Source of the DNA: Symbiodinium natans
Taxonomy: Eukaryota; Sar; Dinophyceae; Suessiales; Symbiodiniaceae
DNA length: 64,000 nt
Direction of reading: 5' to 3'
Assembly: GCA_905221605.1 (NCBI GenBank)
Contig: CAJNDS010000198.1
Span: 2,501-66,500, forward strand
Below are positions 14,761-43,720 of the stretch, one piece after another. The notes below the pieces were generated by a model. It did no database searches. It saw only the letters and a program-made list of their open reading frames with translations, and was not told the DNA's origin. Both the position numbers and the translations under genes were made by a program. Each line of letters begins with the position of its first letter. Within the stretch, counting starts at the first letter, position 1.

Positions 14761-14988
14761 AACTGAGAACTGGGGCCGGCGCACGGACGCAAGTGCAAGA
14801 CGCACTCTTTGGGTTTTAGGGCGCACTCTTTGGGTTTTAGGGCCTAATTAGGGCCTGAAACCCTATACCCGAAACCCGAAACCCGGACACACGCCTCGGA
14901 GAAGTCTGTTTCTTCGCTGTCCTGGATGGGGCCCACATGGGACCTGGAACCCTCACCGCACAGCACTTAGGGCTTGGGTTTCGTGTTT

Positions 14989-15098
14989 CAATATAGGGGG
15001 TCGGAAGAAGTACTAATATTATTCCTTATGGTCCCTATGTAATTGTGCTATAATAAGCCCGAAACTCTATTCTAGTTATTAAGGCCCCGGTATTGGGT
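14989..15098 (-). mobile_element. Family C MITE-like element, copy 5 (inverted)
   Basis: AATATAGGGGGTCGGAAGAA at the left and CTATTCTAGTTATTAAGGCC at the right match copy 4 in order and orientation. Confidence 0.7.
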
Positions 15099-15285
15099 CT
15101 GACTCTTTAACGGCTTTGCGGCGTCCTTGTTGCAGAGTTCAGAGGACATGAAAAACTCGTCGATCGGCATGCCCGGTTCCACTTCCTGCTGCCCGGGTTT
15201 GGGGTTTGGGTAAGGTTAATAAGGGCTTAGGGTTTCGAATCCTAACCATCGCATTCGGTGTGGCAAGGGTTCAGGTTTGGGGTTG

Positions 15286-15312
15286 TTTTTTTGCCATCCG
15301 ACTAGCCAGAGC
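15286..15312 (-). other. 3' end of the retrocopy: A-run after GCTAGTCGGATGGC
   Basis: On the minus strand CTGGCTAGTCGGATGGC is followed by seven A and then CAACCCCAAACC. The T-run/GCCAYCCG motif recurs at other TTTAGGG-flanked loci, so the 3' module may not be viral. Confidence 0.6.
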
Positions 15313-16040
15313 ACCGCGGGGCCCTACGGTCCGACTGACGAGAACTGGAGAACTTCCCTTGGCGTTACGCCTTGATGGGATCGCCTTCAGGCAGTCAGAC
15401 TAGGACATCTATGGGGCTAAGTCCAACTAGTCATTACCAATACTGGTGCAAAAGCCCTCCCCGCCGTGGAAGCCACCGTGGCTTCCACCGTGACGGTCGT
15501 TTGTAAATCCACCCCTCGTCTTAGCTCCAGCCATTCTGCCGAGTTCACCTCCAGTTACGCCCGCCTGTGGCACCTCACTAGCTTGAACATTCCGTTCGGA
15601 GCTAAGCGTTTGCCCTAGGGCGGCTTTGGCCCCTGGCTGATGCAAGGTTCTCGACTGCTATGTACACGGTCGCCGTCCCTAGGATTTAGCGACTCGAGCC
15701 TGCTGACTGAAAGTTGGACATTGGCTTCGTCAGTGTAAATCGGGTCAGCCGCGGTTTGCCGGGACCGCCTATACTTAGAAGAAAAGATTCCATCGCTACC
15801 CACAGCGCCCAAAGAAAGTATTCATCGTCTGGGTGACCTGAACTGTCACGCACTCGAACTGCGCTGCCGGCGGTTTGGGCTAGGGATTCGCTTCACATAC
15901 CTATACCTGCCACTTCAAACATCACTGGCCCGTCCAGGTTACACAGTAATTAGGGGGCCACAAGTGTTTGAATTCTGAATTCGAGACGAACAGAGGTCAT
16001 CACGGGGAGTACATCTGGGCACGCCTTTGGTCAGTTGCTA
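15313..16040 (-). pseudogene. Region downstream of the RdRp in the viral copy
   Basis: Two short minus-strand frames follow each other with a frame change near 15640. The upstream one (15812-15615) contains YTDEANVQLSVSRLESLN, the downstream one (15645-15427) ends in a Gly/His-rich stretch (GGSHGGFHGGEG). This is where an alpha-like virus would carry its 3' genes or untranslated region. I see no capsid or movement protein signature. It could be viral, or host 3' sequence co-transcribed with the copy. Confidence 0.4.
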
Positions 16041-16059
16041 AGTGACCATCCTTGACTCC

Positions 16060-16860
16060 GCCCACCTTAATGTGTTCGGACTAACTCGCACGCCCTCCCC
16101 ACGAGACGTGATACTCACAGAAGTGCTCATAGTCTTTGAAGGCATGGTTCTCGATTGTCACGAGCAGCCCAAAGACGTCAGGCGCGAAAAGACCACCGCT
16201 GACGCAGACACCGCAGAAGCTGGCGCGCTCCCAGTTCTGTCGAAGGCAGATGGAGGAGCGGTACATCATGGCCTCCAACTTCGCAAAGTGACTGCGCGCG
16301 TTGAGTAGGCGTGCGTAAACATCGTCGCCTTTTGATGACCAGAGCTGCGACGGCGTAGTCGAACGCATAGTCCGACATCACGGCAGCGAGCGAGGTGTTG
16401 CCAGCAAGCGTCAGAGGCTCGCCCGAGGTTTTGGCGTACTTAACGATTGCCTTAAAGAATCGGCTCACAAGCTTCCTGCGCACTTTGTTGGAGAAATAGA
16501 GGTCGAGATACTTGCTGGGGATGCCAAGTCTCTCCCAGAAGATGCGTTCAACGCACTGCGTCCACAGGTTCTGGTTCGCGTCAAACTCATCTGACGTAGG
16601 CTTCTCGAGGTCAAAAACCACACGCAGGCGGCAATTACTGACTCATCACGCGAGTTGCGGTCATCACGGAGACCATCATGCTGGCAGACCAGAGAAGTGA
16701 AGAGAGCTTTGTGCGTGAAGAAATTTTACACCGCACACGCACAAACGCTGGCCTGCAGCGTCTGACCTGGCACCTAGTCGGAAGCACAGGTTTGGTTAAA
16801 GATTCGCACCTTGCGTCTGCCTGTGAAGGCCTCACACTGGACACTCCACCATAGGTACGG
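16060..16860 (-). pseudogene. RNA-dependent RNA polymerase palm and thumb region of the viral copy
   Basis: Motif A is DEFDANQN (16591-16568), motif B SGEPLTLAGNTS (about 16426-16391), motif C KGDD (16332-16321) and a downstream FCGVCVSGGLFAPD resembles motif E of alpha-like polymerases. Motifs A and B are in one frame, motif C in another, so a frameshift lies between about 16345 and 16332. Upstream of motif A the frame also breaks: coherent sequence (FFTHKALFTSLVCQHDG) is seen in yet another frame around 16730-16670. The catalytic aspartates of motifs A and C are retained, but the gene cannot make a continuous protein. The fold family is confident; closest relatives cannot be chosen by eye. 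Confidence 0.85.
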
Positions 16861-17023
16861 CTGGGACGTCACCGCGGGTAGGGGATCAAAAAAATTATTT
16901 GGGGTCAAAAATTATTTATGTATAGGCGGATCAAAAAAAACCTTATTTGGGATCAAAAAAATAACTTACTCAAGGCTTCGAAGGCCTATCGCAAGCGGAG
17001 CGGAGGCTGTAAATGCTCAGAAA

Positions 17024-17300
17024 TGCAGCATTTCTGGCCGTTTGCAATCTCTAAATACCGAAACAAAACAGCATTTGTGCGGGAACTACTGAAAATAGCA
17101 GCATTTCTGAGTTTCCAGAGAGGCTGCAGATACTGTATATAGCAGCAGTTCTGCGCTTTCAGAGGCTGGAAATACTGTACCCTGCGGCATTTCTGAATGT
17201 CCAACAGCTGCAAATACTCTAAATAGCAGCATTTTCTGCGCTTTCAGAGGCTGGAAATACTGTAAATAACAGCATTTCTGAGTTTCCAGAGGCTGCAAAT
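17024..17300. repeat. About 42-bp tandem repeat inside the transposon
   Basis: AGCAGCATTTCTG is followed by AGTTTCCAGAGGCTG or CGCTTTCAGAGGCTGG and AAATACTGTAAAT. Starts recur near 17029, 17071, 17101, 17145, 17187, 17229 and 17271. Confidence 0.85.
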
Positions 17301-17329
17301 CAATGCTGGCATCTTGGCATTAGAAGCTT

Positions 17330-17565
17330 CCAAAAAATGCGTGTACTCTGAAGCAAGCCAGAACGATTTAAGAAAAAGAGCGGGGGGTTGGGGGGGGCGC
17401 GCCCCCCCCCCCCCCCCATGCGCAAACACAATGCTCGCATCGTGGGTTTCGAAAGTATGCTGAAGCACCTGGCACGACTCAAAATATAGCGGGGGGGTTG
17501 GGGGGCGGGGGGGGGGTGCAGCCCCCCCACCCCCTCCCATTTGCAAACACAATGCTCGCATAATG
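17330..17565. repeat. Duplicated unit with G-run/C-run hairpin
   Basis: Two copies of a roughly 125-bp unit each contain GCGGGGGGTTGGGGGG facing a C-run, then CAAACACAATGCTCGCAT. Each copy can fold as a long G/C hairpin. Confidence 0.8.
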
Positions 17566-17574
17566 GGTTTTGGC

Positions 17575-17790
17575 ACGACTTCTTCCTTGCTTTCTTTCCT
17601 GTGTTATTTCTTTCTTTGTCTTTCCTTCCTTCTTTGCTTCCTTGCTTCCTTGCTTGCTTCCTTGCTTGCTTGCTTCCTTCCTTCCTTCCTTCCTTCATTC
17701 CTTCATTCCTGCCGTCCTTCCCCCTTCCTTCCTCCCCTCCTTCCCTCCTTCCTTCTCTCCCTCCCTCCCTCCTCTCTCCCAATCCCTCTC
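17575..17790 (+). repeat. TTCC-rich polypyrimidine tract
   Basis: Nearly uninterrupted CTTCC, CTTGC and CCTCC words form a 210-bp pyrimidine strand. Open frames through it are artefacts. Confidence 0.95.
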
Positions 17791-17906
17791 TCCGTCAGAA
17801 AAACAGAATAAATTATTTCTCGATCCTAGATAAATTATTTGTTAATCCTAAATAAAGTTTTTCTTGATCCTAAATGAATTTTTTCTTGATCCGCATCCCG
17901 TCACGG

Positions 17907-18400
17907 CCGCCCAAGAGCACGACCATGCAAGACAGATTGTCTGTGGATCCACATGCCAGCGCCTGTAAATCCAAACAAAAGGACTAGAAGGGGCAAAGTC
18001 TGCAAAGGGCAGGGAGGGAAGTCTCCTCTCAACCAACATCTCTGGCCTGGTGACAGACGGCGGTCGCGGCCTGCCAGCTGGCTGCACTTGTCGCAAAGCA
18101 GGAACGACACAGGGGGAATCTCTACAAGATGGCACGCTCTAGCCATGCGTACCTGGCCTAAGCTGGATCAACAGGCCGGCGCCTTCGAGGCGCAGAGCGT
18201 AGTGCTCGGGCTTAAAGTGACGCCTGGTGAACTGCTCGACCCATGTCAATCATGTCAACCGCGAGTTTCTCGGGGTCGGGCGTCGCTGGCGCGTCGAGCT
18301 TAGTTGCCGGGTCAATAAGCACGCCACATCTGCACCGGTCATGCGGCTAAGGGTGGCGCACCAGGTTCCGAGCGAGCGCAGCGCGTTCACAAGCGTCTCA
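17907..18400 (-). pseudogene. Helicase-RdRp linker and RdRp N-terminal part of the viral copy
   Basis: Minus-strand segments of protein-like sequence occur in different frames, for example KLDAPATPDPEKLAVDMIDM around 18300-18230 ending in a stop, and a segment around 18480-18370 with AENRVRKRALSVRLVNALRS. Their position between helicase motif VI and RdRp motif A fits this region, but individual motifs are not decisive. Confidence 0.5.
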
Positions 18401-18819
18401 CAGAAAGCGCGCGCTTGCGCACACGGTTTTCTGCAGTGTAGAACTCCCGGGAAAAGTCGGCAGGATGGCCGCGCTGGTTGAATGGGTCGAGAAAGTTGCC
18501 GACATTGAGCTGCGCCTAGGGTCGAAATTGCCAACGATGCCAAATTTAAGGGCGCTAAGTCCTGCGGACCTGAAGCGCGCGTCTTCAACGTCGCCGTCCT
18601 TCACAAGGCAAGTCGTCAGGCGCGAATCGCTACCAGGTTGGACGACCTTTTGAACGGGCGGTTCAGTGAGGCGCAAGAAGTCTGGATCAGGGACAACGCT
18701 AGCCGCGGGCCCCCTCGGCGCCTCGATACGCGTGTCCGTTACCAAGGCGAAATTCTCAGTCGGCCGCAGCGACTTCACCCACATCTGAAACTCTGCGCTC
18801 CCATCATCGACGATGGTGA

Positions 18820-19600
18820 GTGTTTTCGTGCGTCGCGACAAGGCCATGTTGTGCTGGCTGGGCGCCGCTTTCGTGAGCTGATAGGCCTTGGCCGTAAAGA
18901 ACACAATGACATGCTCCGCTGTGACACTTTGGATTGAGGCAACGGTCTTGGACCGGTTGGAGTTCGCGGCGTCATCATGAGTGAAGGCAAGCAAGAGCGT
19001 GTCGTTCCCTCCCGGCTTGACACCCGTCCCAAGCGAAGCCTTCACACTCGCCAAAAACCCGCGCGCCGCTCGGCGTACGGTGATACGGGATCATGTTCTA
19101 ACCGAGCGCGTAGAGCCGCATCACGTCCCCACCGGGACACCGGAAGCAAATCTTGAAGAAAGCCCCGGGCAAGTTAACGATGAGCACGTTTTCGCCGGTC
19201 TCGGCAACGCTGATGTGACCGTCAGCGTACCAACCGTGCTCCGGTCGCAGCAGGTTCTGTTTCGGGTCCCCCGCAAGCACGATCTTGCGGACCCCTCGTT
19301 GACGGCGAGTGCAACTCCTGCGCGGAAATCGAACATCGTGAACTCAAGGGTGTCGAACAACCCGACGACGGAGAATAGCACACGATGGGCGGCGACATAG
19401 TCGTAAGCTGGTGGTGGGTACATCGAATTAGGGGCACGGAACGGTTTCACAATGATGTCTTTGTGCTTGCGAAACATCTTTTTGATCATGTAGCTTTTGC
19501 TGGTCCCGGGGCCTGCGTTCCAAAGCTCGATCTGCAGACGTGCAGCTGGTCGACCTCGTAGAGCGTTGGTCGGTTCATATGGCGACACTCCAACCTTTGC
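18820..19600 (-). pseudogene. Superfamily 1 helicase of the viral copy
   Basis: Walker A is GPGTSKS (19513-19493), with the usual Gly before Lys replaced by Ser but Lys and Ser kept. A motif II-like stretch is FTMFDFRAG. Motif III is GDPKQN (about 19271-19254), followed by FRCPGGDVMRL (about 19145-19113), like motif IV of alpha-like helicases. The motif V region includes KTVASIQSVT (about 18949-18920) and motif VI is MALSRRTKTL (about 18847-18818). Frames change between motifs II and III and between IV and V, and a stop follows motif IV. In the viral family this domain unwinds RNA and caps with the methyltransferase; here it is a broken relic. Confidence 0.85.
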
Positions 19601-19604
19601 TGAG

Positions 19605-20300
19605 GCTTGAACTCCTGGACGACCGGCCCGTTGGCGGTCGAGACCTGCACACTAACGCCAGCCTCGGTGTCGTGAGTCACGACAGCACCGAAATCTGCAC
19701 CCACTTTGCACGCTCACGCCGCAGCACGGGCCAGCAACTCTCTGCTCTTGCGTGCGACGACGTTGGCGGCGTCGGATTGGTGGGCGATCTCGCACGCAGC
19801 CGCACCACCAACCCCACCAGGGTGGTATGACTCGACCTGGCGCCGCGCGTAGTTTGGCAAGACGACGAGGTCGCACAGTCGCACAGGATGCCTTCCGTGG
19901 TCAAGTGCTCGACGAGACTCCAAACAACAGACAAGCTTGCCCACGACACCACGCGGTCAACCTGCACAGAGGCGCTCTCGTTGAGCGAGGCGAGTCCTTT
20001 CGGCCGGGACCTCGTCAAAGCTCCGATAATTTCGGAGTTCGCCCACGCGTCCTGCATAACGCTCACGTGCACGGCTAGCGATAGCAGCTCAGCATGCTCC
20101 GGTTTCAGCATCCATGGCGCGACCAATTTCTTCGTGACCAGTCTGATGCCGCCCGCAGCCTTGCGCATGAAATTGCGCCAATTGCTGTGGGTCTGCGACG
20201 AAGGGGCCAACGAACAAAGGTAAAGATAGCAGGTGTCGTACACCGACTCGGAAACGCGGATGTACTTGCGAGGCCCGCTAAAGGACTTGTGCGTCAACGG
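19605..20300 (-). pseudogene. Methyltransferase C-terminal part and Mtr-Hel linker of the viral copy
   Basis: One minus-strand frame is open from the SL junction to about 19850 and holds an alpha-helical stretch (YIRVSESVYDTCYLYLCSL, then NWRNFMRKAAGGIRLVTKKL and HAELLSLAVHVSVMQDAW). This resembles the C-terminal part of alphavirus-like capping methyltransferases, mainly by position and composition. The catalytic N-terminal half is absent because the copy begins at the SL. A frameshift near 19860 moves the line to another frame (LVVLPNYARRQVESYHPGG). Confidence 0.55.
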
Positions 20301-20323
20301 CTTGAGCCAAAATGGCTGCCGGA
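20301..20323 (-). other. Dinoflagellate spliced-leader relic at the 5' end of the viral copy
   Basis: Minus strand TCCGGC followed by AGCCATTTTGGCTCAAG. The last 17 nt equal the 3' 17 nt of the known 22-nt dinoflagellate SL, and the preceding CCG-G-C differs from canonical CCG-T by a small change. The SL is fused to the open frame with no gap. Upstream on the minus strand the sequence is CCCTAGACCCGAAACTCCGG, that is, CCCTAAA-like. Confidence 0.88.
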
Positions 20324-20514
20324 GTTTCGGGTCTAGGGTTTCGACTCTCGCACTCACTGAAGCAGGCGAGGATTCTGTTTAGGGTTTAGGGTTCAGGGTG
20401 CCTCTTGCAAAGGGTTTAGTTGTGGGGCTGCCGGGTGTCAAAACTGCTCGAGCCCAAGCCCCTGCACGCAATCCTTTTCGAGGTCCCAACCCAAGATGTG
20501 GGGACCAAAACCCT

Positions 20515-37669: not shown

Positions 37670-38505
37670 CGGGCTGCTCTTTGTATGTGATGAGAAAGGC
37701 GCGGCTCGATTTGGCCAAATTTTGCCATCAGAAAAGCGCGGCTCGATTTGGCCAAATTTTGCCGGGCAGCTTTCGGGCAAAATTTGGCCAAATCGGGCTG
37801 CTCCTTGTATGCGATCAGAAAGGCGCGGCTCGATTTGGCCAAATTTTGCCGGGCAGCTTTCGGGCAAAATTTGGCCAAATCGGGCTGCTCCTTGTATGCG
37901 ATCAGAAAGGCGCGGCTCGATTTGGCCAAATTTTGCCGGGCAGCTTTCGGGCAAAATTTGGCCAAATCGGGCTGCTCCTTGCATGCGATCAGAAAAGCGC
38001 GGCTCGATTTGGCCAAATTTTGCCGGGCAGCTTTCGGGCAAAATTTGGCCAAATCGGGCTCTTTGTGTGCGATCAGAAAGGCGCGGCTCGATTTGGCCAA
38101 ATTTTGCCGGGCAGCTTTCGGGCAAAATTTGGCCAAATCGGGCTGCTCCTTGTATGCGATCAGAAAGGCGCGGCTCGATTTGGCCAAATTTTGCCGGGCA
38201 GCTTTCGGGCAAAATTTGGCCAAATCGGGCTGCTCCTTGCATGCGATCAGAAAGGCGCGGCTCGATTTGGCCAAATTTTGCCGGGCAGCTTTCGGGCAAA
38301 ATTTGGCCAAATCGGGCTGCTCCTTGTATGCGATCAGAAAGGGCGCGGCTCGATTTGGCCAAATTTTGCCGGGCAGCTTTCGGGCAAAATTTGGCCAAAT
38401 CGGGCTGCTCCTTGCATGCAATCAGAAAGGCGCGGCTCGATTTGGCCAAAATTTGCCGGGCAGCTTTCGGGCAAAATTTGGCCAAATCGGGCTGCTCTTC
38501 CTATG
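37670..38505. repeat. 87-bp satellite, about nine units
   Basis: GCGGCTCGAT starts at 37701, 37738, 37825, 37912, 37999, 38083, 38170, 38257, 38345 and 38432, spacing 87 except the first (37) and one each of 84 and 88. Each unit carries the inverted pair TTTGGCCAAATTTTGCC and GGCAAAATTTGGCCAAA. Because 87 is divisible by three, frames stay open on both strands. Confidence 0.95.
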
Positions 38506-38514
38506 TGATGATAT

Positions 38515-40860
38515 TTAAACTTTTAAACGTTTAAAACTTATAAAACGCCTTAGACCACCAAAGCTTCTAAAACTTGTAAAAATTTTAAACCCTTAAAAAT
38601 GTTAAAACTTTTAAACCTTTAAAGGGTGTTTTAAAGTATTTAAAATTTTTAAATTCCTTAAACTCCTTAAATTCCTTAAATTCCTAACTTAGCCCTAATT
38701 TAGGAATTTAAGGAATTTAAAGAATTTAGGCCTCTTTAAATTCTTTAAATTCCTTAAATTCCTAAATTAAATTAAATTGGTTCTGGGCCCTAATTTGAAT
38801 TTTTTTTACATTCCTTAAGTTCCTAAATTAGCCCTAATTTAGGAATTTAAGGAATTTAAAGAATTTAGGCCTCTTTGAATTCTTTAAATTCCTTAAATTC
38901 CTAAATTAGCCCTAATTTAGGAATTTAAGGAATTTAAGGAATTTAAGGAATTTACAAATTTAAATTACGGCCCAGAACCTCTTTAAATTCTTTAAATTCC
39001 TGAAATTCCTAAATTAGCCCTAATTTAGGAATTTAAGGAATTTAAGGAATTTAAGGAATTTATAAAATTTTAAATTACGGCCCAGAACCAATTTAATTTA
39101 ATTTAGGAATTTAAGGAATTTAAAGAATTTCGGCCTCTTTAAATTCTTTAAATTCCTTAAATTCCTAAATTAGGGCTAATTTAGGAATTTAAGGAATTTA
39201 AAGAATTTAGGCCTCTTTAAATTCTTTAAATTCCTTAAATTCCTAAATTAAATTAAATTGGTTCTGGGCCCTAATTTAAAATTTTTTAAATTCCTTAAAT
39301 TCCTTAAATTCCTTAAATTCCTAAATTAGGGCTAATTTAGGAATTTAAGGAATTTAAAGAATTTAGGCCTCTTTAAATTCTTTAAATTCCTTAAATTCCT
39401 AAATTAGCCCTAATTTAGGAATTTAAGGAATTTAAGGAATTTAAGGAATTTATAAAATTTTAAATTACGGCCCAGAACCAATTTAATTTAATTTAGGAAT
39501 TTAAGGAATTTAAGGAATTTCGGCCTCTTTAAATTCCTTAAATTCCTTAAATTCCTAAATTAGGGCTAATTTAGGAATTTAAGGAATTTAAAGAATTTAG
39601 GCCTCTTTAAATTCTTTAAATTCCTTAAATTCCTAAATTAAATTAAATTGGTTCTGGGCCGTAAATTGAAATTTTTTAAATTCCTTAAATTCCTTAAATT
39701 CCTTAAATTCCTAAATTAGGGCTAATTTAGGAATTTAAGGAATTTAAAGAATTTAGGCCTCTTTAAATTCTTTAAATTCCTTAAATTCCTAAATTAGCCC
39801 TAATTTAGGAATTTAAGGAATTTAAGGAATTTAAGGAATTTATAAAATTTTAAATTACGGCCCAGAACCAATTTAATTTAATTTAGGAATTTAAGGAATT
39901 TAAGGAATTTCGGCCTCTTTAAATTCCCTAAACTCCTTAAATTCCTAAATTAGGGCTAATTTAGGAATTTAAGGAATTTAAAGAATTTAGGCCTCTTTAA
40001 ATTCTTTAAATTCCTTAAATTCCTAAATTAAATTAAATTGGTTCTGGGCCGTAATTTAAAATTTTTTAAATTCCTTAAATTCCTTAAATTCCTTAAATTC
40101 CTTAAATTCCTAAATTAGGGCTAATTTAGGAATTTAAGGAATTTAAAGAATTTAGGCCTCTTTAAATTCTTTAAATTCCTTAAATTCCTAAATTAGCCCT
40201 AATTTAGGAATTTAAGGAATTTCAAGGAATTTAAGGAATTTATAAAATTTTAAATTACGGCCCAGAACCAATTTAATTTAATTTAGGAATTTAAGGAATT
40301 TAAAGAATTTCGGCCTCTTTAAATTCTTTAAATTCCTTAAATTCCTAAATAGCCCTAATTTAGGAATTTAAGGAATTTAAAGAATTTAGGCCTCTTTAAA
40401 TTCTTTAAATTCCTTAAATTCCTAAATTAGCCCTAATTTAGGAATTTAAGGAATTTAAGGAATTTAAGGAATTTAAGGAATTTAGGGAATTTATAAAATT
40501 TTAAATTACGGCCCAGAACCAATTTAATTTAATTTAGGAATTTAAGAAATTTAAAGAATTTCGGCCTCTTTAAATTCTTTAAATTCCTTAAATTCCTAAA
40601 TTAGCCCTAATTTAGGAATTTATGGAATTTTAAGAATTTCGGCCTCTTTAAATTCTTTAAATTCCTTAAATTCCTAAATTAGGGCTAATTTAGGAATTTA
40701 AGGAATTTAACGCATTTAGGCCTCTTTAAATTCTTTAAATTCCTTAAATTCCTAAATTAGCCCTAATTTAGGAATTTAAGGATTTAAAAAAAATTAAATT
40801 AAGGCCCGGCCTCCTTAAATTCTTTAAATTCCTTAACTTCCTAAGTTCTGCCTGAAGAAG
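38515..40860. repeat. AT-rich palindromic higher-order satellite, about 390-bp unit
   Basis: AATTCCTTAAATTCCTAAATT and its reverse complement alternate throughout. The landmark CGGCCCAGAACCAATTTAAT recurs at 39081, 39471, 39861 and 40261, then 40512, giving 390, 390, 400 and 251 bp. Each unit includes AATTTAGGCCTCTTTAAATT and AATTAGCCCTAATT or AATTAGGGCTAATT as internal palindrome centres. Confidence 0.95.
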
Positions 40861-43700: not shown

Positions 43701-43720
43701 CTTGAGCCAACATGGCTACC
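43701..43720 (-). other. Second spliced-leader relic
   Basis: Minus strand GGTAGCCATGTTGGCTCAAG differs from the known SL 3' part at one position within 19 nt (T to G). It is followed at once by ATGCAAAAGAATGA. Upstream (plus 43721-43740) is GGGTATTCGGGTTTAGGG, so this relic also abuts a TTTAGGG block. Confidence 0.75.

Follow-up and report, generated by a model that had tools for sequence, protein, structure and literature searches.

A host spliced leader relic at the likely 5′ edge of a decayed alphavirus-like replicase copy in the genome of Symbiodinium natans

How does the leader of host messenger RNAs come to lie at the front of what appears to be the broken gene of an RNA virus? The question is raised by a 64,000-nt stretch of the genome of the dinoflagellate Symbiodinium natans, analyzed as a whole and called the window below. 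On its minus strand, a relic of the spliced leader (SL) adjoins an open, coding-like frame, and remnants of a helicase and an RNA polymerase follow. SL addition takes place in the nucleus. A junction of SL and viral sequence would thus record the presence of viral-sequence RNA in host mRNA processing. The host SL is likely the 5′ edge of the viral copy, and a broken viral gene just behind a host leader means that the viral RNA was likely processed by the host and then likely copied into DNA. The reading that we prefer, with a probability of about 0.6, is that a decayed alphavirus-like replicase is present, that viral-sequence RNA was trans-spliced in the nucleus at an internal AG, and that it was reverse-transcribed by the enzymes of host retroelements.

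The leader itself is readily recognized. Minus-strand positions 20317-20301 read AGCCATTTTGGCTCAAG, the last 17 nt of the host SL with no mismatch, as the initial annotation had reported. The dinoflagellate SL as published is DCCGUAGCCAUUUUGGCUCAAG (PMC6050394). When the window is compared with the SL consensus and with the context of the leader on contig C479, the 5′ part (20323-20318, minus strand) is TCCGGC where DCCGT is expected, i.e., one insertion and one T-to-C substitution. With only these two changes, the full SL, slightly decayed, is taken to extend from 20323 to 20301. Under equal base frequencies, the exact 17-mer is expected by chance ~7e-6 times in the window and ~0.09 times in the 759-Mb genome. 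The genome holds 504 copies (249 forward, 255 reverse), a count that includes tandem copies and SL-RNA-gene-like units, and a reversed-pattern control gives 0 and 0. On contig C479, the 17-mer repeats, mostly at a spacing of 3.8 kb, and one unit reads CACCGTAGCCATTTTGGCTCAAG then GTACAAATC, an SL with a GT donor behind it; the units of this array are presumably SL RNA genes. The 504 genomic copies against none in the control, together with the SL and GT donor on C479, indicate that the leader is the host's own, and the expectation that it would match the SL of the species is thereby confirmed. The site at 20301-20317 is one relic of the host SL. Elsewhere in the window, a second SL relic, GTAGCCATGTTGGCTCAAG, lies at 43701-43719 on the minus strand, with one mismatch and with a CCCTAAA-type tract before it.

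Downstream of the leader, a helicase is followed by a polymerase, both on the minus strand. A helicase of the PF01443 family followed by a polymerase of the PF00978 family is the replicase order of alphavirus-like viruses. The helicase part opens with GPGTSKS at 19493-19513, which we take to be the Walker A P-loop, and continues in a different frame with GDPKQ at 19257-19271, presumably a further helicase motif. Its C-terminal part (18401-19090) matches Viral_helicase1 (PF01443) with an E value of 6e-4 and a score of 20.1 bits, slightly short of the cut-off of 21, and includes ALSRRT at 18844-18827; in longer frames, the PF01443 match was missed. The P-loop, GDPKQ, and ALSRRT occur in order, with alternating frames. 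Third-position GC is 0.68 in the C-terminal piece. In the pieces at 19560-19350 and 19345-19105, it is 0.56 and 0.66, and because second-position GC there is as high or higher, no third-position excess is seen around the P-loop and GDPKQ. The helicase piece found no relatives in viral contigs and none elsewhere in its own genome, and the sole return from the protein database was a gene model, 'Parg, partial [Symbiodinium natans]'.

The polymerase fragment extends over 16102-16594, with SGEPLTLAGNT at 16426-16394, GDD at 16329, and a frame change near 16332. The window piece matches RdRP_2 (PF00978) with an E value of 9e-5 and 22 bits, where the cut-off is 27. A relative on another, 90-kb contig (P0007) matches PF00978 above the cut-off, with an E value of 7e-10 and 38.8 bits. 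In a tblastn search of the window alone, P0007 aligned in two adjoining frames, with identities of 73% and 56% and a joint E value of 2e-58. On these scores, the polymerase of the replicase copy belongs to RdRP_2. Third-position GC in the polymerase is 0.73. For P0007, no relatives were found in viral contigs, nor in bacterial and archaeal genomes. One viral contig (L001) was considered as a polymerase relative and rejected: most of its match (residues 76-148) falls in the out-of-frame portion of the piece, it is not matched by P0007 (E 4.2), and the helicase piece hits it weakly and on the opposite strand (identity of 30%, E 0.001-0.002 in a search of a few dozen loci). The one sister polymerase fragment found in the genome (L123, G000:C53:173128-173418) is internally deleted and has telomere-like tracts in its flank. 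The 3.1 kb read at that site gave no significant match to any helicase piece and contained none of four SL strings. Between helicase and polymerase in the window lies an insert of ~1 kb (16926-17894) with inverted arms of 36 nt, 83% complementary; at its right end are four tandem 22-nt units (17808-17895).

At least four frame changes interrupt the copy, namely two inside the helicase, one in the polymerase, and one before the P-loop, the last of which counts only if the piece next to the leader belongs to the reading line. Judged from sequence, then, the DNA downstream of the leader is a decayed, frameshifted alphavirus-like replicase. The viral match ends at 16102, and inspection by eye for a poly-A tail, a target-site duplication, and a 3′ edge found nothing convincing. 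Searches of the PDB returned nothing relevant, and those of NCBIfam returned nothing.

Between the leader and the helicase, the minus strand is open from 20300 down to 19680. In the 200 codons after the SL, third-position GC is 0.745, against 0.525 and 0.55 at the other positions. In blocks of 15 codons, it is 0.40, 0.47, and 0.60 upstream of the SL and 0.67-0.87 downstream. Coding periodicity thus begins at or near the SL. When the first 212 amino acids after the SL were searched against the protein database, nothing was matched except the window's own protein; no relatives were found in viral contigs, and no second match in the genome itself. No other copy displays an AG at the presumed acceptor. 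An AlphaFold model of the piece has a mean pLDDT of 34 and is uninformative. Because these 212 residues are without a known relative, we infer the viral identity of the piece beside the leader, and the whole 788 nt (~263 codons) between the leader and the P-loop is likewise presumed to be viral. The proposal that leader and viral reading line are directly fused accordingly holds as regards coding periodicity, which runs from the SL, and finds no backing in homology.

Alphavirus-like replicases normally carry a capping domain before the helicase. The leader had been placed inside the methyltransferase region, and this placement is not borne out: the 212-residue piece has no Pfam methyltransferase match, and the P-loop is as far as 788 nt downstream. 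The capping methyltransferase family PF01660 was matched neither in the 212-residue piece nor in entire frames in which X replaced the stops, the latter scan being a weak test that also missed the helicase. The capping methyltransferase may have been lost through 5′ truncation.

On the other side of the leader is host DNA. The adjoining segment (20324-20399, minus strand) consists of a dispersed short element and a degenerate CCCTAAA-type tail, and at least 39 other genomic places match it, a count based on the scoring of 40 out of 125 candidates. The element is ~40 bp long and is followed by CCCTAAA-type repeats in the majority of the 29 other copies that were read. In the window, it occupies 20329-20378, from CAGAATCCTCGCCTGCTTCAG to GAGAGTCGAAACCC. 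Telomere-like tracts are common in the window (58 C-rich, 70 G-rich), and, as tracts were defined for that count, none is found in the 5.5 kb from 14842 to 20334, a tract-free stretch that ends 11 bases before the leader. With telomere-like repeat before it and tract-free DNA after it, the leader marks the boundary between host repeat and coding-like DNA. Two other repeat regions were noted in the window. Positions 38520-40840 form an AT-rich array (GC 0.32-0.34 in 2-kb bins) with palindromic AATTTAAGGAATTT-type units, and positions 37690-38510 hold tandem GCGCGGCTCGATTTGGCCAAATTTTGCCGGGCAGC-type units in which several frames are open on both strands.

Is this arrangement seen at other leaders? 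In work on retrogenes, SL relics serve as a mark of retroposition (PMC6050394). The initial annotation had used them in the same way, and the flanks of other relics support that use. From the first 100 of the 504 places, 84 sites were retained after removal of those resembling SL RNA genes, the window's own site being included. Telomere-like octamers occur within 60 nt upstream at 20 of the 84 sites and within 60 nt downstream at 1, as would be expected of the 5′ edges of copied transcripts. Specifically, the upstream 60 nt contain CCCTAAA octamers at 16 sites, TTTAGGG octamers at 4, GA runs at 21, and a CT run at 1; the downstream counts, in the same order, are 0, 1, 0, and 0. In control segments 500-560 nt away, the counts are 7, 4, 0, and 0 upstream and 2, 1, 0, and 0 downstream. 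The upstream control is itself rich in octamers, so that some of the excess upstream reflects ordinary intergenic repeats, and TTTAGGG is no more frequent near the leader than 500-560 nt upstream of it (4 of 84 in both). After repeat families were collapsed to 71 sites, the near-upstream counts were 16, 4, 12, and 1. Pfam searches with the longest ORF behind 20 of the 84 other relics gave PUF and PP2C above the cut-off and 17 ORFs without a match; PUF_NOP9 (on the PUF protein) and IFT57 were sub-threshold matches, and no viral family was matched behind these 20 relics.

For the genome as a whole, CCCTAAAC was found no more than 14 nt before the SL 17-mer in 97 pattern matches (77 distinct sites of the 504) and GTTTAGGG in 43 (35 distinct sites by hand count). 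In all, 112 of the 504 SL 17-mers, roughly a fifth, adjoin telomere-like repeats at their 5′ end, with an orientation bias of 77 C-rich to 35 G-rich (p 9e-5). The degenerate tract of the window is in neither list. Strict capping of cDNA ends by telomerase was considered as a cause and is weakened by the occurrence of octamers before the SL in both orientations, though biased; the tract before the leader in the window forms the tail of a dispersed element. The available portions of PMC11453091 and PMC6050394 make no mention of SL relics abutting telomere tracts.

How might these elements have come together? We infer the following order of events. RNA with viral sequence would receive the SL in the nucleus at an internal AG, and trans-splicing would remove everything 5′ of that AG. 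The SL-headed RNA would be reverse-transcribed by host retroelement enzymes of the LINE type, the cDNA would be joined to a pre-existing telomere-like tail, and the joined copy would then decay. A plus-strand RNA virus of the alphavirus-like type normally replicates in the cytoplasm, so that an unusual step would be required for incoming viral RNA to be trans-spliced in the nucleus. The main rival starts instead from a viral copy that was already genomic: a read-through host transcript was trans-spliced in its viral part and then retroposed, which would make the leader a second-generation mark. Host transcripts are the normal substrate of the leader, and in Alexandrium multiple leaders are reported for 61 of the 238 transcripts with full leaders (PMC6050394). 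An older leader behind the SL would mean two rounds of retroposition, and the 15 nt after the leader (20286-20300, minus strand) fit a decayed second leader in tandem register at 10 of 15 positions. A match of at least 10/15 in the next 15 nt is found at 8 of 51 SL occurrences in the genome, the present site included; the background is 0.3% when the register is shifted, and within the viral copy 2 of 1865 positions reach that score. These 15 nt could be an older leader, and they may equally be coding sequence; the older leader is doubtful because the decay of one-third of its bases fits poorly with a 233-codon frame that is still open. No parent of the helicase or of the junction piece was found in the genome, which also tells against a transcript of an older genomic copy, and we regard such an origin as possible but less likely. 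Viral RNA may have passed through the host's mRNA recycling loop, being trans-spliced, retroposed perhaps twice, and joined to a telomere-like tract. We think this somewhat unlikely; were it true, leader addition and joining to telomere tracts would be a general route of entry for RNA viruses into dinoflagellate genomes.

Next after the older genomic copy as a rival is a template-switch chimera, in which a reverse transcriptase changed templates, one being an SL-headed host mRNA and the other a viral RNA that had never been trans-spliced. The 788 nt without homology to viruses would suit a chimera, as would the pieces at 19560-19350 and 19345-19105, where the excess of third-position GC seen in the junction piece is absent. 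Against it, the junction piece, the helicase C-terminal part, and the polymerase have similar third-position GC (0.74, 0.68, and 0.73, respectively), and the pieces show no edge between them, though frame changes would hide one; we consider it rather improbable. A virus that itself bore a 5′ leader, by capture or mimicry, would leave a copy with a plain viral 5′ end. PMC10235124 credits Levin 2017 with a dinoRNAV assembly that carries a 5′ leader, yet the same source describes that virus as having no genes besides those for a capsid and an RdRp, and the capping domain to be expected before the helicase was not detected here, so that this origin seems very improbable. Finally, an unrelated SL relic may have landed next to a viral copy, given the 504 SL 17-mers in the genome. 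The probability that any same-strand SL 17-mer falls within 100 nt of a particular edge is ~7e-5, a figure that is a guide only because the site was chosen after the SL was seen, and coding periodicity reaches the leader. Chance neighbors are the least credible of these accounts. Nuclear trans-splicing of viral-sequence RNA, followed by retroposition, is the reading that we retain.

If confirmed, this reading would give one route by which RNA viruses without a reverse transcriptase enter algal genomes, and it would extend the fossils of RNA viruses from dinoRNAV to alphavirus-like viruses in the Symbiodiniaceae, the family of algae on which corals depend. The abutment of SL relics on telomere-like tracts provides a testable hint about the mode of insertion of the copies. 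SL-tagged RNA-virus fossils as such are already published in dinoflagellates, in the form of dinoRNAV. Within the literature searched (titles and the openings of abstracts), no dinoflagellate was described as having an alphavirus-like fossil that bears a leader. As far as that search goes, what is new is the group to which the virus belongs, the almost direct junction, and how often SL relics abut telomere-like tracts in this genome.

Martellivirales is an order of alphavirus-like viruses. Endorna-like members of this order have been reported from Gambierdiscus, a dinoflagellate (PMC9599419); like the present copy, they are alphavirus-like and have a dinoflagellate host, and unlike it, they are described as exogenous viruses. 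The SL-tagged retrogenes of dinoflagellates resemble the copy in having the leader at the 5′ edge of the copied transcript, and an older one sometimes follows the first; they are host genes, not viral ones (PMC6050394). The closest parallel is with the endogenous dinoRNAV elements of Symbiodiniaceae genomes, in which relict dinoSL sequences nearby were read as signs of retroposition; an SL lies within 500 bp of 6 of 26 dinoRNAV RdRp copies in S. microadriaticum, and S. natans was among the genomes scanned (PMC10235124). Both are RNA-virus sequence with an SL relic in a Symbiodiniaceae genome. The dinoRNAV genome, ~5 kb, is described as capsid plus RdRp (PMC10235124), whereas the present copy has a PF00978-type polymerase and a Viral_helicase1-like helicase. 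The PF00978 match argues against membership in dinoRNAV, and unlike the dinoRNAV elements as described (PMC10235124), the present copy has the leader as its likely edge.
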